NCBI GenBank assembly: GCA_030429865.1
Contig: JAUIFX010000006.1
Span: forward strand, 1-50,579
Source: Gammaproteobacteria bacterium
GTDB taxonomy: Bacteria > Pseudomonadota > Gammaproteobacteria > Ga0077536
Length of the DNA: 50,579 nucleotides
Direction: 5' to 3'
Position 1 is the first letter of the stretch; the number at the start of each line of letters is the position of its first letter. The translations under genes and the position numbers were made by a program. Below, in pieces: positions 34,250 to 48,334 of the stretch. The notes beneath the pieces are model-generated. The model saw only the letters and a program-made list of their open reading frames with translations, was not told the DNA's origin and ran no database searches.

Positions 34250-35107
34250 ATGTCCGCATCCCCGGAGATTCGCCCCCGCCGCAGTTTTCTCTTCGTGCCG
34301 GGTACCGGTACGGCGATGTTCGACAAGGCCATCGCGGCTGGTCCGGACATCGTGTGCGTCGATCTCGAGGACGCTGTCGCGCCGCCGCACAAGCGCCAGG
34401 CGCGGCACGATACGCTCGCCATGTTCGCCACCCGCACGAGCGAGCCGGCCTGCGAGACGCTGATCCGCATCAACGGCCTGCGCAGCCGCGAAGGAATCGA
34501 GGACCTGCTCGCCGTCCTCGACTGTCCGCATCCGCCACGCGGTCTGATGCTGCCCAAGGTCAAGCACCCCGAGGAGATCGTGCAGCTCGATGACCTGCTG
34601 AGCGCGGCGGGCAGCGCGTTGCGCCTGCAGGTCATCATAGAGACCAACGAAGGTCTCGCCGCGGCGCACGAGATTGCGCGCGCGAGTCCGCGCATCGACG
34701 CGCTGCTGTTCGGCGCCATCGACATGGCTGCGGAGCTGCGCGTGGAGCCGAACTGGGACGCGCTGCTCTACGCGCGCTCGCGGCTCGTCCACGCCGCGGC
34801 GGCGGCCGGTATCGATCTCATCGACGTGCCGTTTCTCGATCTCGAGGACATGGCGGGACTCGAGCGCGCGGCGCGGCAGGCGGCAGCGCTCGGCATGACC
34901 GGCAAGGGTGCGATCCATCCGCGGCAGCTGTCCGTAATCACGCACTGCTTCACGCCGGATGCCGAGACTGTCGCGCACGCACGGCGCATCATCGCGGCCT
35001 TCGAGGCCGCCGAGGGTGGCCTCGTGGTCGTCGACGGCAAACTCGTCGAGAAACCGGTGCTGCGTTCGATGGAGCGGATTCTCGCCGTCGCCGAGCGCAG
35101 CGGCTGA
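34250..35107 (+). CDS. HpcH/HpaI-type CoA ester lyase (CitE-like)
   Basis: 285 residues of the citrate-lyase-beta/malyl-CoA lyase family. SFLFVPGTGTAMFDKA at the N-terminus, metal site residues in DIVCVDLEDAV and QVIIETNEGL, and the C-terminal GKGAIHPRQ motif. It should cleave or form a 3-hydroxyacyl-CoA (such as malyl- or citramalyl-CoA type) with Mg2+. ATG at 34250 fits the family start; upstream in-frame residues from 34196 are not conserved-looking. TATCTT (34205-34210) may be the -10. It faces the LLM cluster convergently. Confidence 0.88.
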   Translation: MSASPEIRPRRSFLFVPGTGTAMFDKAIAAGPDIVCVDLEDAVAPPHKRQARHDTLAMFATRTSEPACETLIRINGLRSREGIEDLLAVLDCPHPPRGLMLPKVKHPEEIVQLDDLLSAAGSALRLQVIIETNEGLAAAHEIARASPRIDALLFGAIDMAAELRVEPNWDALLYARSRLVHAAAAAGIDLIDVPFLDLEDMAGLERAARQAAALGMTGKGAIHPRQLSVITHCFTPDAETVAHARRIIAAFEAAEGGLVVVDGKLVEKPVLRSMERILAVAERSG

Positions 35108-35121
35108 GCCCGGCGGCGGTC

Positions 35122-36204
35122 TCAGCGGAACGCCGGCATGACCTGCTCGGCGAAGTCCGCGAGCACCTTGCGTTCGCAGTCCATTGGCGGCCACAGCGCG
35201 ATCTCGCGTATGCCGCTCGCTTCCAGCCGCCGCACGTGCTCGATGATCTGGTCGGGCTCGCCGACGAGGCAACCGTTGGCGACGGCTTCGGGCGTGACGT
35301 ACCTGCGCTCTTCCGGCTGCAGGTAGACGAGGTGCCCGTCGTGGACCTGGCGGAACCGCGCATCCTCGGGCAGGCTCATGGCTTCGACGCGTGCGAGGTA
35401 GTCGGGCCAGACGTTCTTGAAGTGATCGGGGATGAGCGCGTCGTCGCGGCCATTGTCCTTCCACAACTCGTAGAAGAAATGCAGCTCGCAGCCGACCCAG
35501 CTGCCGGTCTCGTCGATCACGCGATCGTCGGTGAGCTGTTCGCCGGGGGCCAGCACGCAGCTGGTGGTGATGAACGCGGTGTGAAAATCCGCCGGCAAGC
35601 TGCGGCCGGCGGCGGCGGCGCCGGAGCGGATCTGTTCGAGCTTGGGGACGAACACGTCCGGCTCGCCGCCGACGGTGATGAAGCCGTCGCCGTACTCGCC
35701 GGCCGCGGCGAGCGCACGCGGACCGTTGGCGGCGACGTAGATGGGAATGCGATCGTCGAGGTTGAGAAAACGCCGCTCGCGGTGCAGGAACTGGATCTCG
35801 CGCGTGCGGCCTTCGTAGGTGTAGTCGACGGCCTCGCCGTCGAGGAGCGCGCGCACGACGCCGAGGTATTCGCGGAACGCCTTCACACGCATCGAATTCT
35901 GCCCCATCACGCGCATCGCGGTGTGGCCGGTGCCGAGGCCGAGGAAGGTGCGGCCGGGGGCCAGCGCGTTGATGCTCGCGATCGAATGGGCCGTGACCGG
36001 CGCGATACGCGTGCCGGTGATGGCGACGCCGGTGCCGATCTCGATGCGCGAGGTATGCTGCGCGGCCAGTGCGAGCACGGCGTAGCAGTCCGACCAGATC
36101 ATCTGCGAGTCGCCGACCCAGGCACGGTCGTAGCCGAGTGACTCGGCGTACTGGATGATCTCCCAGTTGTTGATGTGCGCGCTGACGCCGATGCCGAATT
36201 GCAT
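35122..36204 (-). CDS. LLM-class flavin-dependent oxidoreductase A
   Basis: 360 residues of the bacterial luciferase-like fold: MQFGIGVSAHINNWEIIQYA, GYDRAWVGDSQ, IEIGTGV, TFLGLGTGHTAMRVMG and the C-terminal GEPDQIIEHVRRLEASGI pattern. Members use FMN or F420; the NxxG/SGTH context does not settle which. It is the last gene of a minus-strand cluster (LLM-B is 68 bases upstream). It may perform an oxygenation or reduction of a cyclic substrate. Convergent with the CitE-like gene 14 bases away. Confidence 0.9.
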   Translation of the reverse strand: MQFGIGVSAHINNWEIIQYAESLGYDRAWVGDSQMIWSDCYAVLALAAQHTSRIEIGTGVAITGTRIAPVTAHSIASINALAPGRTFLGLGTGHTAMRVMGQNSMRVKAFREYLGVVRALLDGEAVDYTYEGRTREIQFLHRERRFLNLDDRIPIYVAANGPRALAAAGEYGDGFITVGGEPDVFVPKLEQIRSGAAAAGRSLPADFHTAFITTSCVLAPGEQLTDDRVIDETGSWVGCELHFFYELWKDNGRDDALIPDHFKNVWPDYLARVEAMSLPEDARFRQVHDGHLVYLQPEERRYVTPEAVANGCLVGEPDQIIEHVRRLEASGIREIALWPPMDCERKVLADFAEQVMPAFR

Positions 36205-36272
36205 GCTTGTCTCCCCCGTGCGGTGATCGCTGGACCTGTACGCCGATTAGAACACGCTCGTGCGCGTGCGCC

Positions 36273-37259
36273 TTACGCCCGTAACTGCTCGATGATGCGG
36301 CCGCAGCGTTCGATACCCGCGGCCGTCCACGGGTGCGGCATGATCGAGACATGGCCGACACCGATCGCGGCGTAGGCGGCAAAGCGCTCGGCGATCGCGG
36401 CGTCGTCGCCCGCGAAGGGCTGCGCGCCGGGGACGGGGTAGGGCTCGCGCGTCAGGTTGACGCCGACCGTGGCGTGGCGGGCGAGCGATGCGGGATCGCG
36501 GCCGTGCGCTTCGCAGGCGGCCGCGATTGGCGCCCAGGCGCGCCGCCAGGCGGCGGTGGAGGCATCGCCGAACGCGAGCATGGTGTTCCACATCGCGGCA
36601 TGTTCGACGACCAGGCGTGACATGCGCGGCCGCCCTTCGAGCGAGCCGATCATGATCGGCGGACCGCCGTCGCGTGCGGCCTTCGGCGTCAGCGCCGCGT
36701 TCTCGCAGCGCTGCCAGCGGCCCTCGAACGTCACCGTCTCGCCGCGCAGCAGCGGCGCGATGATCGCGAGCGCTTCCTCGAAGCGCCCCACGCGGTGATC
36801 GAAGGGATAGCCAAAGGCCCGGTGCTCGGTCGCGAAATCGCCCGCGCCGAGGCCGAGGATGAGACGCCCGTCGGCGAGGTCGTCGACGGTGTCGGCCATG
36901 CGCGCGAGCAAAGCCGGATTGCGAAAGCCCGTGTTGCACACCAGCGTGCCGAGGTGCACGCGTGTCGTCGCCTGTGCGATCGCGGCCAGCATCGTCCAGC
37001 ATTCCCACTGGCCGTTCTTGACCCCGGCCAGCTCCTGCGGCAGTTCGACGCCGACCACGCGGAAATCGTCGTACGGCTCGTAGAAGAAATGATCGCTCAT
37101 CCACACGCTGTCGAAGCCGGCCTGCTCGGCGAGCCGAGCGAGTGCGACGACGTCGCCCGCGCGCGGCGTGACGCCGTCCATCGCCGCGGTCCAGCTCGGC
37201 AGCAGCAGGCCGAGCTGCAACGCGGCAGGCGCAATCGGTTCACCGTCGGGCATGCTCAT
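36273..37259 (-). CDS. LLM-class flavin-dependent oxidoreductase B
   Basis: 328 residues, luciferase-like: LQLGLLLPSWTAAMDG, AGFDSVWMSDHFFYEPYDDF, THLGTLV-type strand (VHLGTLVCNTGFRNP) and LILGLGAGDFATEHRAFGYP. This branch (EHRAFG) resembles F420-dependent glucose-6-phosphate-dehydrogenase-like LLM proteins, though FMN is not excluded. ATG at 37259 has a GGAGA SD; a second ATG is two codons in. Its sequence is clearly different from LLM-A, so they are not a recent duplication. Confidence 0.9.
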   Translation of the reverse strand: MSMPDGEPIAPAALQLGLLLPSWTAAMDGVTPRAGDVVALARLAEQAGFDSVWMSDHFFYEPYDDFRVVGVELPQELAGVKNGQWECWTMLAAIAQATTRVHLGTLVCNTGFRNPALLARMADTVDDLADGRLILGLGAGDFATEHRAFGYPFDHRVGRFEEALAIIAPLLRGETVTFEGRWQRCENAALTPKAARDGGPPIMIGSLEGRPRMSRLVVEHAAMWNTMLAFGDASTAAWRRAWAPIAAACEAHGRDPASLARHATVGVNLTREPYPVPGAQPFAGDDAAIAERFAAYAAIGVGHVSIMPHPWTAAGIERCGRIIEQLRA

Positions 37260-37291
37260 GCGTCGTGTCTCCGGGTGCGCTACCGGCAGGC

Positions 37292-38509
37292 TCAGAGGGC
37301 GAGGTAGGTTTGTGGGTCGCTGGCCGCGGTGGCGCGCAGCAGCACTTCGGGGCGCCGGTAGTGAGCGGCCTTGGCGCGGTGTTGCGGATCGTCCGGCTGC
37401 GGACCGATGTAGCTGCCGAGATCGCGTCCCCAGGCAACCACCGCGCGCGCGTAGCGCAGGCGCTGTGCTTCCCACGCGGCCAGCGTGTCGGCGCCGCCGT
37501 CGGCAAGGGCACTGGCGAAACTCGAGGCGTCGTCGGCGGCTTTCGACACGCCCAGGCCGACGTGCGGCCGCGCGGTCGCCGCAGCGTCGCCGATCAGCAC
37601 GACGCGACCGTGGACCAGGCGTTCGCTGCAGAAATCGAACATGCCCTGTAGGAACGGCTGCCGCGTGGCGGCGATGATGGCCTGGATCTGGGGCGCGAGA
37701 TGATCACGCGCCTGTCCGCGCATGGCGGCAACGAGTTCGTCGCGGATGAGGTGATGCGGGATGCCGCCTTCGTGGTAGTGACCCGAGGCGTCGGTGAGGT
37801 GGTCGGCGAGGGTCGCGGCGTCGGCGCTGCGGTACCAGCCCCAGTTATACCAGCGCCGGCCGGGCTCGAGGGTGTCACCGGGACCGGCGACGAGGTAGCC
37901 GAGCCAGTGACCGCCGGGCGCCATGCCGAAGGCCATGCGGTGGGCGACCTGTTCGAGCACGTCGCCCGGTACCAGCGCTTCGTCGATCAGGCCCCGCCAG
38001 CCGAAATAGCCGACGTACCCGGCCTGCGTCTGCGGGGCAACGATGGCGCGCACCGTGGAGCGCGCGCCGTCGGCGCCGAGCAGCCAGTCGGCGGTGACGC
38101 GCGATCCGTCGTCGAACACCGCGGTGACCTCGTCAGCCGCGGCTTCGATGCCTGTCAGCGCCCGCCCGCCGTGGTAGATCGCATCCGGCACCTGCTCGCG
38201 CAGGAAGCGATAGATGAGCCCCCAGGAGGTCATGACCTGGTGCATATCCTGGGTGTGCAGGACGCTGCCGTCGCGCGCGAACATGATGCGGCCACGGGAT
38301 TCCACGCCCATTTCCGCGCGCAGCTCGATGCCGGCCGTGCGCACGGCTGCGTAGAGTTCGTCGTGGGTCGCGATACCGGCACCGCGGTTGGCGAGTGCTT
38401 CGCCGGCGCGTTCGTAGATGGCGACGTCGCAACCGCGTGCGCGCAGTGCGATGGCCGCGAACAGGCCGGCCATGGAGCCGCCGATGATGGCGATGCGCGG
38501 CGTGCTCAC
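37292..38509 (-). CDS. FAD-dependent aromatic-ring-type monooxygenase
   Basis: 405 residues of the class A flavoprotein hydroxylase family. FAD-binding IIGGSMAGLFAAIALRARG at the N-terminus, DG motif in LLGADGARSTVR and GD motif in VVLIGDAAATARPHVGLG. Closest in feel to 2,6-dihydroxypyridine hydroxylase and salicylate hydroxylase. The GTG start overlaps the esterase stop by four bases (GTGA), so the two are translationally coupled. It probably hydroxylates an aromatic or heterocyclic substrate. Confidence 0.9.
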   Translation of the reverse strand: MSTPRIAIIGGSMAGLFAAIALRARGCDVAIYERAGEALANRGAGIATHDELYAAVRTAGIELRAEMGVESRGRIMFARDGSVLHTQDMHQVMTSWGLIYRFLREQVPDAIYHGGRALTGIEAAADEVTAVFDDGSRVTADWLLGADGARSTVRAIVAPQTQAGYVGYFGWRGLIDEALVPGDVLEQVAHRMAFGMAPGGHWLGYLVAGPGDTLEPGRRWYNWGWYRSADAATLADHLTDASGHYHEGGIPHHLIRDELVAAMRGQARDHLAPQIQAIIAATRQPFLQGMFDFCSERLVHGRVVLIGDAAATARPHVGLGVSKAADDASSFASALADGGADTLAAWEAQRLRYARAVVAWGRDLGSYIGPQPDDPQHRAKAAHYRRPEVLLRATAASDPQTYLAL

Positions 38510-39441
38510 CGTCCCAGCGCCTCGCGCAGGGCGGCCGCGGCGCGCTCGAGCGCGACGATGCCGGTGTCGATGCGCCCGCCCATGCGCGCAAAGCCGTGGA
38601 TCATGTCCGGGTAGTGATCGTGCGTGACCGCGATGCCGGACCTTGCGAGACGTTCGGCGTAGGCGATCGCCTCGTCGCGCAACGGGTCGTAGCCGGCCGT
38701 CTGGATCAGCGCCGGCGCGACCCCGCCGAGGTCAGCGGCGTGGAACGGCGAGGCCCGCCAGTCGGTGGCGAACCGCGCATCGGGCAGGTACCAGTCGATG
38801 AACCGGGCCATCGCGGCACGCGTCAGCATGTAGCCCTGCGCGTTGTCCCTGAGCGAGGCATTGTCCGCGGCGAGGTCGACGGCCGGGTAGATCAGCAACT
38901 GCAGCCTGAGTGCAATCTCGCCGCGTACGGCGAGTGCGGCGGCGGCCGCGAGGTTGCCGCCCGCGGAGTCGCCACCGACGGCGATGCCGTCCGCATCGAC
39001 GTCGAGTTCCCCGGCCCGCTGCGCGATCCAGCGGACGCAGGCGACGGCGTCGTCGAAGGCCGCCGGGAAGCGGTGCTCCGGTGCGAGGCGGTAATCGAGC
39101 GCGACGACGGCGCAATCGCCGTGGCCGGCGAGGTAGCGGCAGACGTGATCGTGGGTGTCGAGGTCGCCGACGACCCAGCCGCCACCGTGGCAGAACACCA
39201 GTACGCCCGGTGCGGGCGCTGCGCGCGCGCGGCGCGGCCGGTACACGCGCACGCTCAGCGGACCGCCCGGGCCGTCGAATGTCTGCCCGGCGACGCTCTC
39301 GAGCTCGGGCGTGGCGTGGCGGTACTGTGCGGTCGTCGCGGCGTACCCGGCGCGCATCGCCTGGTAGTCGTCGGCTTCGAAGGGCACGCCGGCGGCGTTG
39401 GCCGCGTCGACGATGGCCTGGGCCTGGGGATGCAGGGACAT
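38506..39441 (-). CDS. HSL-family alpha/beta hydrolase (esterase), possibly leaderless
   Basis: 311 residues of the hormone-sensitive-lipase family. Oxyanion motif HGGGW (85-89), nucleophile elbow GDSAGG (S159), acid in DPLRDE and His in MIHGF. It hydrolyses short or medium acyl esters or lactones. The ATG is preceded exactly six bases upstream by TATACT, so +1 would fall on the A of ATG and the mRNA could be leaderless; no SD is present. It may therefore head the four-gene unit esterase, FAD monooxygenase, LLM-B, LLM-A. Confidence 0.92.
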   Translation of the reverse strand: MSLHPQAQAIVDAANAAGVPFEADDYQAMRAGYAATTAQYRHATPELESVAGQTFDGPGGPLSVRVYRPRRARAAPAPGVLVFCHGGGWVVGDLDTHDHVCRYLAGHGDCAVVALDYRLAPEHRFPAAFDDAVACVRWIAQRAGELDVDADGIAVGGDSAGGNLAAAAALAVRGEIALRLQLLIYPAVDLAADNASLRDNAQGYMLTRAAMARFIDWYLPDARFATDWRASPFHAADLGGVAPALIQTAGYDPLRDEAIAYAERLARSGIAVTHDHYPDMIHGFARMGGRIDTGIVALERAAAALREALGR

Positions 39442-39447
39442 GGCCGG

Positions 39448-39453
39448 AGTATA
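39448..39453 (-). promoter_or_regulatory. -10 element placing +1 at the esterase ATG
   Basis: TATACT on the minus strand, then six bases (CCGGCC), then ATG. This geometry is that of known leaderless genes. No clear -35 is seen because a GC hairpin lies there. Confidence 0.45.
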
Positions 39454-39476
39454 GCGCCGCGCGATCCGCGCGGCGC
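39454..39476. repeat. Perfect 10-base inverted repeat between DUF1330 and esterase genes
   Basis: GCGCCGCGCG (39454-39463), loop ATC, CGCGCGGCGC (39467-39476). It starts directly upstream of the esterase -10 and lies 8 bases past the DUF1330 stop. It could end the DUF1330 transcript, or be an operator at the -35 position. There is no U-run. Confidence 0.5.
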
Positions 39477-39484
39477 TGCGCCGT

Positions 39485-39766
39485 CTACTCGCCGCCGAGA
39501 ATGAACACGCTGTCCATCGCCGCCAGGCGGGTCGGAATGACCGCCTGGTAGTCGGCCGAGTCGTACCAGTCTTTCGCCGCTTTCCGGCTGGGGAATTCGA
39601 GCACGACCATGATCTGGTGCGGCGACTCGCCGGCAAGGACCTCGCTCGGACCGCGGCTGACGATCTTGCCGCCGTGCGCGGTCACGGTCGGCCCGGCGGC
39701 GGCGCCGTACTCCTGCATCTTGTTCTGGTCGAGGACGGTGGCGTGAACGACGACGTATGCGCTCAT
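39485..39766 (-). CDS. DUF1330 family protein
   Basis: 93 residues, a complete DUF1330 (ferredoxin-like alpha-beta barrel). MSAYVVVHATVLDQNKMQEY, the GGKIVSRG turn and FPSRKAAKDWYDSADYQAVI are family hallmarks. These small dimeric proteins accompany degradation genes and are suspected monooxygenase- or isomerase-like, without proven activity. ATG at 39766 with an AAGGAAAC SD. It sits 43 bases upstream of the esterase on the same strand, separated by the hairpin. Confidence 0.92.
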   Translation of the reverse strand: MSAYVVVHATVLDQNKMQEYGAAAGPTVTAHGGKIVSRGPSEVLAGESPHQIMVVLEFPSRKAAKDWYDSADYQAVIPTRLAAMDSVFILGGE

Positions 39767-40123
39767 GGATGTTTCCTTGTTGCTGTGCTCGCCGCCGGGG
39801 GCGGCGGCCGGTGGTTGGCGGAAACGGCTAGGTTAACCGACAACGCCGCCCGCCGCGGCCCGGCATGAGCCGGGCGGCGCGGGGCACGGTGGGCGCCAAG
39901 CAGGCGCAATCGTTTCAGCTTGCCAAATCGTGCCGGCGTGACTTGCAGCTGGCAGGCACGCACGGCGCCGGCGCGGGAAATGCGTAGTACGTCGCAATCG
40001 TCCGGGCCGCTGACAAATGTTGACACGCGGGCATCGCGCCCTGGTCGTAGAGTATCCGCCAACAGCATTGACTGGCATCAGCAGATGCAGGATGCGCTCC
40101 GCAACCGTAAAGGATTCATTGCC
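39767..40123. other. Non-coding divergent spacer
   Basis: About 357 bases between DUF1330 and the PEP-CTERM gene. It contains an isolated TTGACA (40020-40025) without a -10 at normal spacing and a TAGAGT 22 bases after it. No RNA gene or credible ORF is seen. Confidence 0.45.
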
Positions 40124-40951
40124 ATGACGACGACCCTGCGACCTCTCATCGCCGCAGCCTGCCTCGCCTGGGGCGGGCAAGCCGCGGCCTACCTGATCGA
40201 TGACCAGGCTTCCGCCCCGCTGCGCTACCACGGTGGCAACGGCCATGGTTACGGCGACGTCGTCGGCAGCGCCGCGACGTTCGACGTGCTCGGTGCCGAC
40301 ATCGCCCTCGACGGCAGCGTACTGACCGTCGACATCTACACCAACCTCGTCGGTAACGCCGGCGTGTTCGCCCCCTACACCGCGTCGGGTCGTGGCATCG
40401 GCTACGGCGATCTCTTCCTTGCCAACACCTGGACGCCATTCGGCACGCCGAACTTCGACAACGACGATCACGCGAGCGGCACGGTGTGGCAGTACGGGCT
40501 CGCCATCAACGGTGACCGCTGGGCCAACAGCGATTACGCAAACTCGGCGACGCTCTACGCGCTGGGCGGCACGAACGATGCGAGCGCGCTGCTCTCCGAC
40601 GACCTCATGCAGGGCAACGCGGTCTGGCGCAACGGCCAGGAAGTGCTCGTCGACCGTGCCGCGGGCGGCGCCGTTACGGCGGTCGGCAGTGGCACCTGGA
40701 GCGTCTCGGCCAGCGCCGATCGCATCCGCTACCAGGTCGACATCTTCGGTACCGACCTGTGGTGGCAACCCGGCCAGAGCGAGCTGACGATCGCGATGCA
40801 CTGGGCGATGGACTGCGGCAACGACGTCATCGAGGGGGCGACGGTGTTCTTCGACCCGCCGCCGAACACGAGCGTGCCGGAACCGGCCGCGCTGGGTCTC
40901 GCCCTGTTGGGTCTCGCCGGCGCCGGCGGGCTGCGTCGGCGTCGCGCCTGA
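40124..40951 (+). CDS. PEP-CTERM sorting-domain protein
   Basis: 275 residues: signal peptide (about 1-22, ending GQAAA), a beta-rich secreted domain, and a canonical VPEPAALGLALLGLAGAGG tag with RRRRA tail (251-275). The tag predicts cleavage by an exosortase and release to the cell surface or matrix. The domain begins AYLIDDQASAPLRYHGG and has no recognisable catalytic motif. An AAAGGA SD lies nine bases before the ATG. No exosortase or polysaccharide gene is nearby, and its tag differs from those in the cobalamin operon. Confidence 0.88.
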   Translation: MTTTLRPLIAAACLAWGGQAAAYLIDDQASAPLRYHGGNGHGYGDVVGSAATFDVLGADIALDGSVLTVDIYTNLVGNAGVFAPYTASGRGIGYGDLFLANTWTPFGTPNFDNDDHASGTVWQYGLAINGDRWANSDYANSATLYALGGTNDASALLSDDLMQGNAVWRNGQEVLVDRAAGGAVTAVGSGTWSVSASADRIRYQVDIFGTDLWWQPGQSELTIAMHWAMDCGNDVIEGATVFFDPPPNTSVPEPAALGLALLGLAGAGGLRRRRA

Positions 40952-41051
40952 GGCGCACGGAACGCGCGACGCGGCGGACCGGTCAGCGAGCCGTCCGCGC
41001 CGCGCGATGCCCCGGGGCCTGCGCGCGCAGCACCGCCGCGGCCTCCCCGGG

Positions 41052-41057
41052 TATACT
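41052..41057 (+). promoter_or_regulatory. Candidate -10 element of the quinone-oxidoreductase cluster
   Basis: TATACT lies 32 bases before the GTG start and 21 bases before the SD (GGGAGG). The -35 region is poor. Confidence 0.38.
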
Positions 41058-41089
41058 CGACCGCCGGACAACGGCGCGGGAGGTCGGGT

Positions 41090-42061
41090 GTGACGCAGGC
41101 GATCGTAGTGCATGAATACGGCGGGCCGGAGCAGCTTCGCGTCGAGTCCGTCGAGGTCGGCGAACCGGCCGCCGGCGAGGTCCGCATCCGTCACACCGGC
41201 ATCGGCGTCAACTACGTCGACACCTACTTCCGGCGTGGTCTCTACCCGGCGACACTGCCCTACATCATCGGCGACCAGGCCTGCGGCGTGGTCGAGGCGC
41301 TCGGACCAGGCGTGACGTCCTTCGCCGTTGGCGACCGCGTCGCCTACGGCTCGTGCGCGAACGCCTACGTCGCGGCGCGCCTGGTCCCGGCCGAGGTGCT
41401 CGTGCGCCTTCCCGGCGACGTTGACGAGACCGTCGTCGCGGCGAGCCTGACCCGCGGCATGACCGCGGAATACCTGTTGTTCCGTCTCCACCCGCTCGCG
41501 CCTGGCGAGACCTGTGTCGTTTACGCGGCGGCCGGCGGTACCGGTCGGATCGTCTGCCAGTGGGCCAAGCATCTCGGTGCGACAGTCATCGCCACGGTCG
41601 GTACGGCGGAGAAGGTCGCGGTCGCGCGCGAGGCCGGCGCCGACCACGTACTGCTCAACGACGACCCCGATTTCGTCGCCCGGGTGCGCGGCTGGAGCGG
41701 CGGGCGCGGCGTCGATGTCGTCTACGACTCCGTCGGGCGCGACACCTTCACGCAGTCGCTCGCCTGCCTGCGTCCGCGTGGCCTGATGGTTGCCTACGGC
41801 AACGCCTCGGGTCCGCCCGACCCGCTCGACGTGCTCGCGCTCGCGCGCCACGGGTCCTTGTTCCTGACCCGGCCGCGCTTGCCCGAGTACGTCGCCACGC
41901 GGGCGGAGCTCGAACTGTGTGCGGGGCGCTATTTCGACGCCCTCGCCAGCGGTATCGTGCGGCCGCACGCGACGGAACGTTTCGCGCTGGCCGACGCGGC
42001 CGCCGCGCACGTGCACCTCGAGGACCGCAGCAGGCTGACGATGCCGGTGCTGGTGCCATAG
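41090..42061 (+). CDS. Quinone oxidoreductase (zeta-crystallin/Qor type)
   Basis: 323 residues of the zinc-free MDR superfamily. GIGVNYVDTYFRRGLYP in the substrate domain is the Qor hallmark, with VYAAAGGTGRIVCQWAKHLGATVIATVG for NADPH binding. It reduces quinones or enones with NADPH. The GTG at 41090 is supported by GGGAGG (41078-41083). First gene of the plus-strand cluster with an LLM flavoprotein, PcaD-like hydrolase and GST. An enone reductase would fit a ring-degradation route. Confidence 0.93.
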   Translation: MTQAIVVHEYGGPEQLRVESVEVGEPAAGEVRIRHTGIGVNYVDTYFRRGLYPATLPYIIGDQACGVVEALGPGVTSFAVGDRVAYGSCANAYVAARLVPAEVLVRLPGDVDETVVAASLTRGMTAEYLLFRLHPLAPGETCVVYAAAGGTGRIVCQWAKHLGATVIATVGTAEKVAVAREAGADHVLLNDDPDFVARVRGWSGGRGVDVVYDSVGRDTFTQSLACLRPRGLMVAYGNASGPPDPLDVLALARHGSLFLTRPRLPEYVATRAELELCAGRYFDALASGIVRPHATERFALADAAAAHVHLEDRSRLTMPVLVP

Positions 42062-42135
42062 GCGGCGCAGCGCGGGCGCGCGCGGCGCCTTCACCTGACG
42101 GCGCCGGGCGCCGACGAGCCAGGAGTCCAGCGACG

Positions 42136-43227
42136 ATGAAGCTGAGTTACTTCACGATGCCCCTGCATCCACCGGGGCGCGATTACCTGCAGACCCTGGC
42201 CGAGGACCGCGAAGCGATCCTGCTCGCCGATCGGCTCGGCTACTACGAGGCTTTCGTCGGTGAGCACGTCACCGATCGCGCCGAGACGATCACGTCCTGT
42301 CTGATGTTCCTCGCCAGCCTCGCCTACCACACGCGCGACATCCGCCTCGGCAGCGGTACGGTCAACCTGCCGAACAGTCACCCGGCCGCGGTCGCCGCGC
42401 AGGTGGCGATGATCGATCACATGCTCGGTGGCCGCTTCGTGTTCGGCATCAGCCCGGGCGGTCTGCGTTCGGATGCCGAGGTGTTTGGCAACCTCGAACG
42501 GGATCGCAAGGCGATGTTCGAGGAAGCGATCGCGCAGGTGCTCGCGATCTGGTCGGGCGAGCCGCCCTACGATCTCACCGGCGAGTTCTGGTCCGTGACG
42601 ACGCGCAACACGCTCGATCTCGAGATCGGCCAGGGCGCCATCCTCGGCCCTTACCAGCGCCCGCATCCGCCCATCATGGTCGCGTGCATGTCGCCGTTCT
42701 CCGACTCGGTCGCCAATGCCGCGCGGCGCGCGTGGTCGATCGTGTCCGCCAACTTCCTGCAGCCGGTGTGGGTCCGCAGCCACTGGGACAAGCTGGTCGA
42801 AGGCTGGACCGCGGGCGGCCATGCGCCGAACCCGGCCGACTGGCGCGTCGCGCGCAGCATTTTCGTCGCCGACGACGAGAAGACCGCGCGCCGCTACGCG
42901 ATGGATGCCGACGGCCCCTACGGTTATTACTACCGCAGCCTGATGCGCAAGCTGATCGGCAACGGCCGCCCCGACCTGTTCAAGACCCGGCGTGACATGC
43001 CGGACGGCGAAGTCACGCACGAGTTCGTCATGCGTTCGCTCGTCATCCACGGCACGCCGGACCAGGTCGCCGAGCAGATCCTGGCACTGCGCGCGGACCT
43101 CGGCGAGTTTGGTACGCTGGTCTATGCCGGCCACGACTGGGCCGAGCCCGAGCTCGCGCGGCGTTCCATGACGCTCATGGCCGAGGAAGTCATGCCGGCG
43201 GTCAACCGCGCGCTCGGCGCGCGCTGA
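42136..43227 (+). CDS. LLM-class flavin-dependent oxidoreductase C
   Basis: 363 residues, luciferase-like with the FMN-monooxygenase look: KLSYFTMPLHPPGRDYLQTL, YYEAFVGEHVTD, IRLGSGTVNLPNSHPAAVA and FVFGISPGGLRSD. EHVTDR and SHPAAVAAQVAMIDHMLGGR resemble the limonene 1,2-monooxygenase/LadA-type group, suggesting two-component oxygenation of an alkane, terpene or cyclic ketone. ATG at 42136 has AGGAG upstream. It lies 74 bases after the Qor gene and 31 before the hydrolase. A flavin reductase partner is not in the window. Confidence 0.92.
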   Translation: MKLSYFTMPLHPPGRDYLQTLAEDREAILLADRLGYYEAFVGEHVTDRAETITSCLMFLASLAYHTRDIRLGSGTVNLPNSHPAAVAAQVAMIDHMLGGRFVFGISPGGLRSDAEVFGNLERDRKAMFEEAIAQVLAIWSGEPPYDLTGEFWSVTTRNTLDLEIGQGAILGPYQRPHPPIMVACMSPFSDSVANAARRAWSIVSANFLQPVWVRSHWDKLVEGWTAGGHAPNPADWRVARSIFVADDEKTARRYAMDADGPYGYYYRSLMRKLIGNGRPDLFKTRRDMPDGEVTHEFVMRSLVIHGTPDQVAEQILALRADLGEFGTLVYAGHDWAEPELARRSMTLMAEEVMPAVNRALGAR

Positions 43228-43258
43228 GCCGGCCCGTTCGCATTCAGGAGCTACCGCC

Positions 43259-44047
43259 ATGAGCATCGTCGAGACCCGCACCATCGCCCTCAACGCGAGC
43301 GTCGAGGGGCCGGCCGGCGCGCCCGCCGTGATGTTTTCCAATTCGCTCGGCGCCAACCTCTCGATGTGGCAGCCGCAGGCCGAGCACCTGCGCGATCGTT
43401 ACCGCGTGGTGCGCTACGACCAGCGCGGTCACGGCCTGAGCGAGGTGCCGGAAGGGCCCTACAGCTTCGCCGAACTGGTCGAGGACGCCGTCGCGCTGGC
43501 CGACGCGCTCGGCATCGAGCGGTTCCATTTCGTCGGCCTGTCGATGGGCGGCATGACCGCGCTCGGGCTCGCGCTGACCTATCCCGCGAGACTGCTGTCG
43601 GTGACGCCGGCAAACTGCGTGGCCGGTTTCCCGCCGGACGGGCGCCGCAACTGGGAAGAGCGCATCGCAACGGTCAGCCAGGGCGGGCTCGAGCCGCTGC
43701 TCGAATCGACGCTAGAACGCTGGTTCACCGCGCCGACCCGGGACGCGCGGCCGGCGCAGATGCAGGCCGTGCGCGAGATGGTCGCGGCGACGCCGGTGCA
43801 GGGTTACGTCGGCTGCTGCGGCGCACTGCGCGGACTCGACTACGATGGCCGCCTGGAAGCGATCACCACGCCCACGCTGTTCATCGCCGGCAGCGAGGAT
43901 CCCAGCACGACGGCCAGCGCGATGCGCGCGATGCACGCGCGCGTCGCCGGGTCGCGCTACGTCGAGCTGCCCGCGGCGCACGTCTCCAACCTCGAGTGCC
44001 CCGACGCTTTCAACCGCGCGCTCGACGACTTCCTCGCCGCGCCCTGA
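43259..44047 (+). CDS. Alpha/beta hydrolase, 3-oxoadipate enol-lactonase (PcaD)-like
   Basis: 262 residues resembling PcaD. SNSLGANLSMWQPQ oxyanion region, YDQRGHGLS, nucleophile elbow GLSMGGM (S95), acid in AGSEDPST and His in AAHVSNLE. PcaD opens the beta-ketoadipate enol-lactone; here, next to an LLM oxygenase, a lactone made by ring oxygenation is a plausible substrate. An AGGAG SD precedes the ATG. No other beta-ketoadipate gene is in the window, so identity with PcaD is not claimed. Confidence 0.88.
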   Translation: MSIVETRTIALNASVEGPAGAPAVMFSNSLGANLSMWQPQAEHLRDRYRVVRYDQRGHGLSEVPEGPYSFAELVEDAVALADALGIERFHFVGLSMGGMTALGLALTYPARLLSVTPANCVAGFPPDGRRNWEERIATVSQGGLEPLLESTLERWFTAPTRDARPAQMQAVREMVAATPVQGYVGCCGALRGLDYDGRLEAITTPTLFIAGSEDPSTTASAMRAMHARVAGSRYVELPAAHVSNLECPDAFNRALDDFLAAP

Positions 44048-44081
44048 GCGCCGTGCGGGGACGCCCGGCGGCCTTCCTGCG

Positions 44082-45026
44082 ATGAGCGCGGCCGACCTGA
44101 TCCTGCACCACTACGACTTCTCCAACTACTCGGAGAAGGTCCGCCTGGTGCTGGGACTGAAGAAGCTGGCCTGGCACTCCGTGACGATCCCGGCGTGGGC
44201 GCCGAAACCGGACTACACGCCGCTCACCGCCGGCTACCGGCGCACGCCGGCGCTGCAGATCGGCGCTGACGTGTACTGCGACACGCAACTCATCGCCGCG
44301 GTGCTGGAGGAACTCGCGCCGACGCCGACGCTCTACCCGGGCGCGGACGTGGCGCGCACGCGCGCCCTGACCGCCGCCCTCGTGCACTGGGCCGAGGTCA
44401 GCCTGTTCCGCCCGGTCGCGCTCTACATCACGGGACGCCATGCCGCGCGCTTCCCGGAGGCGTTTCATGCCGACCGTGCGCGCCTGCACGGCCGCCCGGT
44501 GCCGAGTGTCGCCCAGGTCGAGGCGTCCGCGGCCAAGTACGAGGCCCAGGTCGCCCCGCAGCTCGCCCACCTCGAGGCCCTGCTCGGCAGCGGCGCGGCC
44601 TGGGTGCTCGGCGATGCCCCCGGGCTGGCCGACCTCGCGCTCTACGAAGCGCCGTGGTTTCTCGAGACCATCGGCGGCGCGGACGCGCTGCCCGCCGGCC
44701 TGCCGCGCCTACGTGCCTGGATGCAGCGGGTCGCGGCGCTCGGTCACGGCCGCGCGCAGGCCATGACCGCGGCGCAGGCGCTCGCCGTGGCGCGCGCGAG
44801 CCGGCCGCGGGCGCCCGCGGCCGGGTGCGTCGGGCCGGTGCCCGAAGGCCTGTCCTGCGGCGACGCGGTGACGGTGCGCCCGCTCGACGAGGACGCCCCG
44901 GCGAGCGGGCGCCTGGTCGCGGTCGACGCGCACCGTATCACCCTGGCGAGTACGAGCGCGGCCACGGCTGACGTGCACGTGCATTTTCCGCGGCTCGGTT
45001 ACCGCCTCGGCCGCGCGCGCCGGTGA
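44082..45026 (+). CDS. Glutathione S-transferase-like protein with C-terminal extension
   Basis: 314 residues. An N-terminal thioredoxin-fold domain (LILHHYDFSNYSEKVRLVLG, with Ser at the usual activation position, and a TPALQIG cis-Pro motif) precedes an all-helical domain to about 230. A further ~80 residues form a small beta-rich module (DAVTVRPLDEDAPASGRLVA, VHVHFPRLGYRLG) absent from ordinary ~220-residue GSTs. It probably conjugates or isomerises a reactive intermediate of the cluster. No SD stands out before the ATG. Last of the four clustered catabolic genes. Confidence 0.87.
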   Translation: MSAADLILHHYDFSNYSEKVRLVLGLKKLAWHSVTIPAWAPKPDYTPLTAGYRRTPALQIGADVYCDTQLIAAVLEELAPTPTLYPGADVARTRALTAALVHWAEVSLFRPVALYITGRHAARFPEAFHADRARLHGRPVPSVAQVEASAAKYEAQVAPQLAHLEALLGSGAAWVLGDAPGLADLALYEAPWFLETIGGADALPAGLPRLRAWMQRVAALGHGRAQAMTAAQALAVARASRPRAPAAGCVGPVPEGLSCGDAVTVRPLDEDAPASGRLVAVDAHRITLASTSAATADVHVHFPRLGYRLGRARR

Positions 45027-45081: not shown

Positions 45082-47109
45082 ATGAGTGAAGGGCCGACGC
45101 GCGCGCTGCGGGCCGCCGCGATCGCGGCCGCGGCGCTGGTGATGTCCGCTGCCGTGGCGAACGACCTCGCGTTGCGCCTGGCGCGCGTGGACCTCGCTGG
45201 GCTCGGCGCCGACGGCGTGGCGCTCACGCTCGACTGGCAGGACATCACCGCCCCCGCGGCCAGCTTGTCCGCGCGCCGCGTGACCCTGCCCGGCCCGCTC
45301 GGGGCACTCGAAGACGTCACGCTGCGCTGCGCGCGCCTGCGTCTGGAGGCCAGCGCGCTGCGTTGTCCCGCCGCGACGCTGCGGGCGACGCACGCGGTGT
45401 ACGGCCAGCTCGATGCCGAGGTCGCGTTCGTCTACGCGGCGAGCGGCGCCCTCGACATGTCGCTCTCGACCAGCGCCATCATTGGCGGTCACCTCGAGGC
45501 CGAACTGCATGTCGTCGAGGGGCGGACGCGGCTGGTCGTCAACGGCCGCGACCTCGCCATCGAGGGCGCGACCCATGTGACCGTCGGCGAACTCGCCATC
45601 GACACGACGATCCCCGCCGGGCAGGACGCCACCGTGGCGGTGCAGGCGCGCTTCGCGGACCTCGCGTTCAGCAATGCGCCGGGCACGCTGGCGGGCGAAG
45701 CGCTCAGCGGCGAGTTCGATCTCGGTCTGCGCGCGGATGCGACGGGCGAGTCCTGGGCGGGACACGTGCGGCTCGCCCTCGAACAAGGCGGCGCCTACGC
45801 CGAGCCGGTCTACCTCGATCTCGCACACTACCCGGTCACCTTCGCCACGGACTACCGTTACGAGCCCGCGACCGCCAGCCTGGCGTTATCCGCGCTGACG
45901 CTCGATCAGCCCGGCGTGATGCAGCTCGAGGGGCGCCATCTGCGCGTAGCCGACGGCGCCCTGGCAGAAGCCGACGTCGCGGTCGCGCAGATGACGTTCC
46001 CCGCTGCCTACCAGGCCTACCTGGCCGGCTTTCTCGTCGGCACCCCGCTTGCCCGCCTCGACATCGAAGGTGCGCTGAGCGGCCGGGTGCGGGTCGCCAG
46101 CGGTGCACTCAGCGCGCTCGACGTCGTGCTCGAACGCCTCGACCTGGAAGACCGCGATGGCCGTCTTGCCCTGTACGGCGCCGGCGGCGAGGTGCACTGG
46201 GCGGCCGACGGCGCCGATCTCGCCGCCACGGTGCTGCACGTCGATGGCGGCTTTCTCTACGGCGCCGGTTTCGATGCGACCGATCTCGTCCTCGGCATCG
46301 CCGGCGCCGCGGTCGATCTGCTCGAGCCGGTGCGCATCCCGCTGCTCGGCGGCGCGCTCACCATCGATCGTTTCACGCTGCGCGATTACGGCAGCGACGA
46401 ACTCGCGCTCGGCCTCGAAGCGGCGCTCGAACCGATCGATCTCGGCCAGCTCACGCTCGCGCTCGACTGGCCGCCGTTCGCCGGCACGCTGTCGGGCCGC
46501 CTGCCGCTGCTGACCTACAGGAACGGCGTGGTGACGCTCGGCGGCAAGCTCGAAGCGCGCGCGTTCGACGGCGACATCGCGATCGAGGGCCTGCGCATCG
46601 CGCGCCCGCTCGGCCTCGTGCCCGAAATCGAGGCGAGCATCCGCATGCGCAATCTCGACCTTGCCCAGATCACCGAGGTCGTGCCGTTCGGGCGCATCAC
46701 CGGGCGTCTCGACGTCGACATCGCCGACCTGCGCATGCTCAAGGGCGAGCCGGTGCGCTTCGACGCGAGTTTCCGCACGCCGCCCGAGGACGACTCGCGC
46801 CACCTGCTGAGCCAGCGCGCCGTCGATACCATCTCGCGCGTCGCGGGCGGCGGCGGCGCGGTGCTGTCGACGACTTTCCTGCGCGTGTTCGAGGATTTCT
46901 CCTATGAGCGTCTCGGTATCTCCTGCCGGCTCGAGAACGATGTCTGTCACATGGACGGTATCGCGCCGGCGGAGGACGGCTACTACATCGTCAAGGGCGC
47001 GTGGCTGCCGCGCGTGGACCTGATCGGGCGCGTGCGCCGGGTGCACTGGTCGCGCCTGATGTCGCAACTCGAGCAGGCGCTCGCCGAGGGCGAGTTCAGG
47101 ATCGAGTGA
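45082..47109 (+). CDS. YdbH/AsmA-like envelope protein
   Basis: 675 residues. An N-terminal signal/anchor (about 9-27) is followed by long repeated beta-rich stretches typical of the AsmA/TamB/YdbH bridge-like lipid-transport proteins. The C-terminal part (LDVDIADLRMLKGEPVRFDA, then VAGGGGAVLSTTFLRVFEDF and GISCRLENDVCHMDGI) resembles YdbH homologues. E. coli YdbH is ~880 residues and works with YnbE and YdbL; a YdbL-like gene lies 1.4 kb downstream here. Lipid transport between membranes is the likely role, from family knowledge. ATG at 45082; its 3' end overlaps the convergent MFS gene by 14 bases. Confidence 0.68.
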   Translation: MSEGPTRALRAAAIAAAALVMSAAVANDLALRLARVDLAGLGADGVALTLDWQDITAPAASLSARRVTLPGPLGALEDVTLRCARLRLEASALRCPAATLRATHAVYGQLDAEVAFVYAASGALDMSLSTSAIIGGHLEAELHVVEGRTRLVVNGRDLAIEGATHVTVGELAIDTTIPAGQDATVAVQARFADLAFSNAPGTLAGEALSGEFDLGLRADATGESWAGHVRLALEQGGAYAEPVYLDLAHYPVTFATDYRYEPATASLALSALTLDQPGVMQLEGRHLRVADGALAEADVAVAQMTFPAAYQAYLAGFLVGTPLARLDIEGALSGRVRVASGALSALDVVLERLDLEDRDGRLALYGAGGEVHWAADGADLAATVLHVDGGFLYGAGFDATDLVLGIAGAAVDLLEPVRIPLLGGALTIDRFTLRDYGSDELALGLEAALEPIDLGQLTLALDWPPFAGTLSGRLPLLTYRNGVVTLGGKLEARAFDGDIAIEGLRIARPLGLVPEIEASIRMRNLDLAQITEVVPFGRITGRLDVDIADLRMLKGEPVRFDASFRTPPEDDSRHLLSQRAVDTISRVAGGGGAVLSTTFLRVFEDFSYERLGISCRLENDVCHMDGIAPAEDGYYIVKGAWLPRVDLIGRVRRVHWSRLMSQLEQALAEGEFRIE

Positions 47110-48334
47110 AGCGGCGCACGTTGACCGCGAGCACGAGGGTCAGCAGCAGGGCCGTCAGGTTGAGCGCGGCGGCGCCGAAGAAGGCGGTCTGGTAGCTGCC
47201 GTCGAGATCGTACAACCAGCCGGCGGCATAGGGGCCGAACGCGGCCGGTGCGCCGGCCACGGCGAAGATCACGCCGACGATGCTTGCCATGTGGGTGCGT
47301 CCGAACAGGTCGCCGCACAGCGGCGGCAGCAGGGTCACACCGCCGCCGTACGAGAAACCGAAGACCAGCGCGGCGACGCCGAGCGCGGCGAGCGTGTCGA
47401 CGACGGCGAAGCCGGCGAAGGATGCGGCCTGCAGGACGAACACCGTGACGAGGGCGGGGAAGCGTCCCAGCCAGTCGGATGCGACGCCGGCGGAGAGTCG
47501 TCCGGCGACGCCGCCGAGACCGATCGCGGCGAGCAGCGAAGCCGCGCTCGCCGCGCCGAAACCGAGGTCGGCGGCGTGCGCGGGCAGGTGCACGAAAGGC
47601 ATGAACACGACCAGCCACGAGCAGAAATAGGTCGCGATGACGAGCGCGAAGCGCGCGCTCCGGCGGACCTCGGCGAGAGCCGGTTCGGGCGCCGGTACCG
47701 CCGCCGCGCTGGCCGGGAGCGGGTCGCCATCGGGCGCGAGGCCGAGCGTTTCCGGGTCGCGCACCATGTAGCGCGCCGCGACGAGCATCGCCAGCGCGCT
47801 CGCCAGGGCGACGATACCGAGCGCCGTGCGCCAGCCCCAGGCGACCATCAGCATGCCGGCGAGCGGCGGCACGACGAAGTTGCCGAGGCTGGCGCCGCTC
47901 GAAGCAATCGCGACCGCGGCGCCGCGCCGGCGCGTGAACCAGCGCGCAACGGTCGCGTTGCAGGGTACCCAGGCCACGCTCATGCCGAGCGCGGCGACCA
48001 CGCCGAGGCTGATGGCGAGCTGCCAGGGCGCTTCGACGAGCGCGCTGCCACCCCAGCCAAGACCCAGCAGCACGGCGCCGAGCGTGATCACCTGGCGCGG
48101 ACCGAAACGATCGGTGGCACGGCCGGTGGCAGCGCTGAGCGCGCTGTAGGCGAACACGTAGAGCGAATAGGGCAGGGCCGTCGCGGCGCGGCTCCAGCCG
48201 AGTTCGGCCGACATGCCGGTGACGAACACGCCGTAGCTGAACTGCAGGCCATAGGCGAGGAACAACACCGCGAACGCCGCGGCGACCACGATCCAGCCAT
48301 AGAACGGCGCGCCGCGTGCGGCAGCGTGATTCAT
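47096..48334 (-). CDS. MFS transporter, monocarboxylate/OFA-like
   Basis: 412 residues with 12 membrane helices. FYGWIVVAAAFAVLFLAYG at helix 1 is typical of the MCT/oxalate-formate antiporter branch. VPCNATVARWFTRRRGAAVA is the loop 4-5 signature. A short-chain carboxylate or pathway product is a plausible substrate. ATG at 48334; longer in-frame upstream residues are not membrane-like. It lies on the opposite strand between the YdbH-like and YdbL-like genes and overlaps the YdbH-like gene's end by 14 bases, suggesting later insertion into that locus. Confidence 0.9.
   Translation of the reverse strand: MNHAAARGAPFYGWIVVAAAFAVLFLAYGLQFSYGVFVTGMSAELGWSRAATALPYSLYVFAYSALSAATGRATDRFGPRQVITLGAVLLGLGWGGSALVEAPWQLAISLGVVAALGMSVAWVPCNATVARWFTRRRGAAVAIASSGASLGNFVVPPLAGMLMVAWGWRTALGIVALASALAMLVAARYMVRDPETLGLAPDGDPLPASAAAVPAPEPALAEVRRSARFALVIATYFCSWLVVFMPFVHLPAHAADLGFGAASAASLLAAIGLGGVAGRLSAGVASDWLGRFPALVTVFVLQAASFAGFAVVDTLAALGVAALVFGFSYGGGVTLLPPLCGDLFGRTHMASIVGVIFAVAGAPAAFGPYAAGWLYDLDGSYQTAFFGAAALNLTALLLTLVLAVNVRRFTRS

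Follow-up and report, generated by a model that had tools for sequence, protein, structure and literature searches.

We analyzed two opposed gene clusters (g29-g38, positions 35122-45026) on contig JAUIFX010000006.1 of an uncultured gammaproteobacterium of the family Ga0077536, which we tentatively read as encoding part of a pathway that degrades a ring compound, perhaps entering as an ester. The window is the whole contig (50,579 nt; C219 in our numbering) of a 4.6-Mb genome (G000) in 291 contigs, estimated as 95.7% complete. Genes were called by codon usage, which gave a clear coding signal for all genes of the block, and the proteins were scanned with Pfam and NCBIfam models. The block and its flanking gene g28 comprise the following features (LLM, luciferase-like monooxygenase family; FAD, flavin adenine dinucleotide):

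34250..35107, plus strand: g28, HpcH/HpaI (CitE/RipC-like) C-C lyase (PF03328, 137 bits), flanking, convergent with g29
35122..36204, minus strand: g29, LLM protein, apparently of the F420-dependent hydride-transferase class (PF00296, 168.6 bits; PDB and Foldseek matches)
36273..37259, minus strand: g30, TIGR03560-like LLM protein, probably of the F420 class (LLM Pfam match, 167.7 bits)
37292..38509, minus strand: g31, class A FAD monooxygenase, 2,6-dihydroxypyridine-hydroxylase-like (PRK07236)
38506..39441, minus strand: g32, HSL/Abhydrolase_3 esterase (PF07859, 237 bits; HGGG and GDSAG motifs)
39485..39766, minus strand: g33, small DUF1330 protein, heading the minus operon (PF07045, 84.8 bits)
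40085..40951, plus strand: g34, PEP-CTERM exported protein between both clusters (PF07589)
41090..42061, plus strand: g35, NADPH:quinone/enone-type reductase, MDR family (PF00107, PF08240)
42136..43227, plus strand: g36, type II Baeyer-Villiger-like LLM monooxygenase, predicted flavin class (LLM, 165 bits; 4uwm, Foldseek)
43259..44047, plus strand: g37, PcaD-like enol-lactone hydrolase (TIGR02427)
44082..45026, plus strand: g38, GST-fold protein (PF13417/PF13410)

On the minus strand, the genes g33-g32-g31-g30-g29 are separated by 43, -4, 32, and 68 bases (35122-39766) and read as one tight operon. The plus-strand genes g35-g36-g37-g38 lie 74, 31, and 34 bases apart and are followed by a YdbH-like gene (g39), and the spacing between g33 and g34 is 318 bases. 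A scan of the inter-operon gap for promoters and terminators detected none, where about none were expected. The stretch g22-g38 is collinear in a genome of the same genus (G001), with ~84-99% identity. The gene call and the model scans bear out the gene list of an earlier note on this DNA, most of whose names were correct, as well as the CitE-like lyase it placed beside the clusters (g28); that list did not include g33 and g34, which lie between them. A nearby gene (47096-48334, minus strand), convergent to the plus cluster, encodes an MFS transporter of the lactate/oxalate-formate kind, a possible uptake protein.

The most conserved member of the block is g31. Thirty-five other genomes of the family, in which sizes range from 1.4 to 6.1 Mb, were searched, and with the own genome included g31 is present at ≥55% identity in 25 of 36 (in one of them in pieces); in 22 genomes of other families, no match better than E = 1e-6 was found. 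The protein passes the curated cut-off of PRK07236 (422.9 bits vs. 333), a model titled "hypothetical protein" in NCBIfam, and carries the motifs GGSMAG, DGARS, and GDA, which together place it among the PRK07236-type class A FAD monooxygenases. Its best solved relative is 2,6-dihydroxypyridine hydroxylase (DHPH) of the Arthrobacter nicotine pathway (2vou, 169.5 bits), with tropone 2-monooxygenase as the second nearest (next score, 76.3). The alignment to DHPH covers nearly the full length, scores far above the other solved enzymes and includes a shared Pfam FAD_binding-like domain with the GGSMAG and GDA motifs; the nicotine-pathway partners of DHPH, however, are not in the window around g31. 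The terpenoid, steroid or cycloalkanone substrates put forward in the earlier note gained no support from anything found; the solved enzyme to which g31 comes closest by sequence acts on a dihydroxypyridine.

For g36, the best PDB sequence match is 3,6-diketocamphane monooxygenase (4uwm, 100.7 bits), and Foldseek searches with its predicted model (predicted local distance difference test score, pLDDT, 80) returned 5aec/4uwm as the best matches (TM 0.80, ~26% identity). With an LLM fold closest to this enzyme, g36 is predicted to be a flavin-class, type II Baeyer-Villiger-like protein that would oxygenate a ketone. Residues 42-44 (GEH) are invariant across 12 aligned orthologues. Like the 3,6-diketocamphane 1,6-monooxygenase of the CAM plasmid, g36 is followed by a gene of lactone-hydrolase type; it differs in its low identity to that enzyme and in that the block is without a flavin reductase gene. 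Flavin reductase genes do lie ~1-2 kb from g36 relatives at three loci elsewhere (L151, L204, and L205). A further parallel is offered by Caenibius tardaugens, whose progesterone degradation uses an LLM-type Baeyer-Villiger enzyme (PMC12239570). Going by the accessible description in that source, it resembles g36 as an LLM with Baeyer-Villiger chemistry in proteobacterial ring degradation, but its locus adds another Baeyer-Villiger monooxygenase and two regulators, and the g36 block has no regulator. Among 398 Pseudomonadota genomes, a g36-type match at E ≤ 1e-40 was detected in 12, and one of ≥60% identity in five, own included. CofD over its cut-off was absent from eight of the 12 g36-bearing genomes outside the family, several of the 12 being incomplete; two g36-bearing genomes without it are single-contig genomes. 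The other four were counted as CofD-positive, and one such CofD gene has an internal stop. Since orthologues occur where CofD does not exceed its cut-off, F420 is unlikely as the g36 cofactor.

The gene that follows, g37, passes TIGR02427, the equivalog model of PcaD (3-oxoadipate enol-lactonase), with 271.2 bits against a cut-off of 255.85. It carries the nucleophile motif GLSMG, and its best solved relative is 2xua (180 bits).

The remaining enzymes are assigned more broadly. For g29, one of five AlphaFold models was confident (pLDDT 82), and in Foldseek its best 30 matches were all F420-dependent enzymes (Mer, Fgd1/2, and alcohol dehydrogenase), the first enzyme using flavin mononucleotide (FMN) appearing at rank 31. 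F420-dependent Mer also headed the PDB sequence matches. With the closest folds F420-dependent and F420 genes in the own genome, g29 looks like a member of the F420-dependent LLM hydride transferases (Mer, Fgd), from which it differs in scoring below every curated LLM model cut-off listed (best, TIGR03842, 131.8 vs. 295.45). Similarly, g30 is probably of the F420 class; its best PDB match is F420-dependent Mer (63.6 bits), and its TIGR03560 score (180.5 bits) is under the cut-off of 231.4. The esterase g32 falls just under the LipP1 cut-off (345 vs. 350 bits), and the reductase g35 under that of PRK10754 (292 vs. 348). A homologue of g34 with 45% identity is found at the g36-g37 locus of G014. 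Finally, g28 reached neither the RipC (251.6 vs. 375) nor the CitE (167.9 vs. 443.4) cut-off.

From these assignments a route can be proposed, in which the substrate and the order of steps are predicted. Ester hydrolysis would be performed by g32, and g31, with FAD, NAD(P)H, and O2, would add a hydroxyl group to an electron-rich hydroxy-arene or hydroxy-pyridine. Double bonds of the ring or of a side chain would be reduced by g30 and g29, with F420H2 as the predicted donor, and by g35 with NADPH. With FMNH2 from a reductase encoded elsewhere in the genome, g36 would insert an oxygen atom beside a ring carbonyl to give a lactone or enol-lactone, which g37 would hydrolyze to an open-chain acid. 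Lactone formation followed by hydrolysis, as the earlier note had proposed, is plausible for the g36-g37 pair because g36 is closest to type II Baeyer-Villiger monooxygenases by sequence and predicted fold. Both operons would serve one pathway in this organism.

Independent support for the trio of hydroxylase, type II Baeyer-Villiger-like LLM and lactonase comes from gene company in distant lineages. Relatives of g31 in named genomes were examined at the best 80 of 96 loci, of which 52 were classed as outside the family; this split was made manually, on the basis of record titles and locus numbers. A g36 relative (≥50% identity) lies within 10 kb of the g31 relative at 14 of the 52 outside loci, in five lineages (nine SAR116-type, two Aquabacter, and one each from Methylobacteriaceae, Xanthobacteraceae, and a betaproteobacterium); some of the other 38 loci are cut by contig ends. 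At 11 of the 14 loci a g37 relative adjoins g36, and at one more it is ~8 kb away. The SAR116-type order is g36-g37-136 aa-322 aa-g31, in which the 136 and 322 aa genes are VOC and cyclase in L127, and the Aquabacter order is g31...g37-g36. The earlier claim that the two clusters are linked thus holds in part, through g31, g36, and g37 as neighbors in SAR116 and Aquabacter and through the g31-g36 pair in three others, but does not extend to the CitE-like lyase. At the genome level, g31 and g36 were both present in none of the 398 sampled Pseudomonadota genomes but the own one; with only 7 and 11 other positives, this co-occurrence is uninformative. In L127 (SAR116), a molybdenum hydroxylase adjoins the g36-g37-g31 operon together with a PuuE-like deacetylase. 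In L204 and L205 (genus g138, outside the class), a molybdenum hydroxylase is divergent from g36, and a PuuE-like deacetylase and a flavin reductase are also encoded. These three loci perhaps represent a catabolic pathway of their own.

Within the family, we read the surroundings of 23 g31 loci besides the window. Nearby were g38 in nine, g37 and citrate synthase in eight each, a g29 homologue in five, g32 in four, and g28 in one, that of the same genus. As g28 is kept near g31 only within the same genus, we rejected it as a pathway member; the coenzyme A-level cleavage previously suggested gained no independent support. In the 2-Mb genomes of genus g3, gltA-g38-g37 is divergent from g31 at all six loci, and at three of them another LLM-type gene lies directly before g31. 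Genus g5 has gltA-g38 and g31 together at two loci. The order g33-g32-g31 is kept in G001, G006, and G014; in G006, the contig that carries it also has g37 and g35. In G014 and G028, g36 and g37 are adjacent. Four of the records searched (L073, L080, L085, and L092), titled as "Klebsiella pneumoniae" metagenome-assembled genomes, belong to this gammaproteobacterial family, and their titles look wrong.

Several observations weigh against a shared pathway. At 15 of the 23 family loci, including all those of genera g4 and g8, the stretch read around g31 is without g37; in these two genera the g36 and g37 relatives lie elsewhere in the genome, apart from g31. A g36 orthologue (≥69%) is absent from 18 of the 36 family genomes, and four genomes of genus g3 that are without it still keep g31 and g37. 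In a tree of 90 g31-type proteins, the window g31 belongs to the family clade and the SAR116 g31 to a separate, long-branched one, and the presence of g36 nearby changes at least eight times, so the g31-g36 company is patchy and was gained or lost repeatedly. No regulator or flavin reductase families were found by the Pfam and NCBIfam scans among the genes at 34-47 kb. Moreover, since LLMs are so numerous in this organism, their presence in the block says little. The own genome has 86 first-look LLM candidates, of which 35 were scored and all 35 passed; if the 86 are real, and assuming ~4,500 genes, ~0.5 stretches with three LLMs in 11 genes would be expected per genome, which makes the three found here weak evidence by themselves. 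Finally, the association of these genes within the family could simply stem from gene order inherited near gltA.

One alternative, which we hold to be unlikely, is that g37 is the orphan PcaD of the protocatechuate pathway; its place beside g36 and g38 would then be incidental and the block composed of unrelated operons. The own genome carries pcaI-pcaJ-pcaH-pcaG-pobA-pcaB-pcaC on contig C181 without pcaD, and g37 is its sole protein over the PcaD cut-off (270.8 in this comparison; runner-up, 148.9), so g37 may be the missing PcaD and serve protocatechuate breakdown. Likewise, neither G014 nor G006 has pcaD in its pca cluster (L226 and L227; pcaI-pcaJ-pcaH-pcaG-pobA-pcaB), and in G014 the g37 orthologue is the only protein over the cut-off (257.7). 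On the other hand, g37 lies on a different contig from the pca genes, G006 has two proteins over the PcaD cut-off, and g37 relatives adjoin g36 in SAR116 and Aquabacter, though they are only ~40% identical. Three streamlined genomes of genus g3 (G003, G011, and G017) retain g37 over the PcaD cut-off and have no PcaH over its own, which argues against protocatechuate breakdown as the sole role of g37.

It is also possible, but in our judgment unlikely, that the neighborhood reflects nothing more than inherited order near citrate synthase, with no shared pathway, and that the LLMs, dispersed representatives of a large protein family, act on unrelated substrates. The abundance of LLMs (at least 35 in 27 of 31 family genomes, some of ~2 Mb included) and the dissolution of the company in genera g4 and g8 are in line with this. 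Yet the same three families meet in other classes in different surroundings, and of the window's genes from this block, genus g3 keeps just g31, g37, g38, and gltA within ~20 kb, with no long collinear stretch.

A special case of the ring-catabolism reading, in which an N-heterocycle would be opened by g31 hydroxylation, oxygenolytic cleavage by g36 and hydrolysis by g37, appears improbable. The relation of g31 to DHPH points to it; according to the accessible text of PMC8305194, DHPH belongs to the pyridine pathway of nicotine degradation, which also uses molybdenum hydroxylases. A molybdenum-hydroxylase small subunit occurs at loci of g31/g36 relatives under seven lineage labels (likewise assigned manually from titles and locus numbers), some of them with putative cyclases, a PuuE-like deacetylase, hydantoinase-type genes, and flavin reductase. 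However, the Pfam and NCBIfam scans revealed no C-N hydrolase in the window block, and the SAR116 g31 is only 37% identical and lies in another clade. In the 38 genomes searched around this one, the molybdenum hydroxylase from those loci has relatives of just 29-38% identity and no orthologue; a role for the alphaproteobacterial enzyme in this family was rejected, as no close homologue was found there. The literature search turned up no fitting pathway for homarine or another named marine N-heterocycle, and this idea was dropped. That search, which left subscription journals largely outside its reach, retrieved no relevant described pathway with these genes. The enzyme families are all known; we found no description of how they are combined here or of the recurrence of this set in SAR116 and streamlined gammaproteobacteria.

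Elsewhere in the window, ARAGORN reported an 86-base tRNA-Ala (16450-16535, minus strand) inside the hrpB helicase gene (14640-17111, plus strand), which is probably false.

Genes for F420 biosynthesis occur in much of the family. The own genome encodes cofE, cofD, cofC, and cofG together on C173 (L216) and cofH on C227. Among 25 family genomes searched, a CofD match was detected in 24 (over the cut-off in 20) and CofH over its cut-off in 23. The LLM numbers given above compare with 0-8 matches per genome in 19 genomes of other gammaproteobacterial families. In at least nine genomes of the family (examples: G004:C66, G009:C44, G018:C28, G005:C1, and G012:C10), a g36 paralogue (43-48%) lies ~10 kb or less from genes for F420 biosynthesis; in the own genome, a g36 paralogue is found at L217:3897-5003, and the genes adjoining it are also LLM-like. 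In a North Sea bloom study, Ga0077536 genomes were the most monooxygenase-dense of the set, and F420 is not mentioned in the accessible part of that report (PMC8371827). In a review on F420, the reason why those proteobacteria that produce the cofactor do so is named as an unanswered question (PMC8498797).

If the proposed pathway is real, it would provide a function for three uncharacterized orthologue groups in uncultured bacteria. A wider form, for which we see only a slight chance, is that an as yet undescribed ring-opening pathway of DHPH-type hydroxylase, type II Baeyer-Villiger LLM and enol-lactonase is common to SAR116 and other alpha-, beta-, and gammaproteobacteria, with F420-dependent LLM reductases added in this family. 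If so, the added reductases would be one reason why these bacteria make F420 and, even with genomes of 2 Mb, carry LLMs by the dozen. This F420 and LLM setting may matter more than the pathway itself, as a family in which genes for F420 biosynthesis coincide with an expansion of LLMs makes the purpose of F420 testable on named genes.

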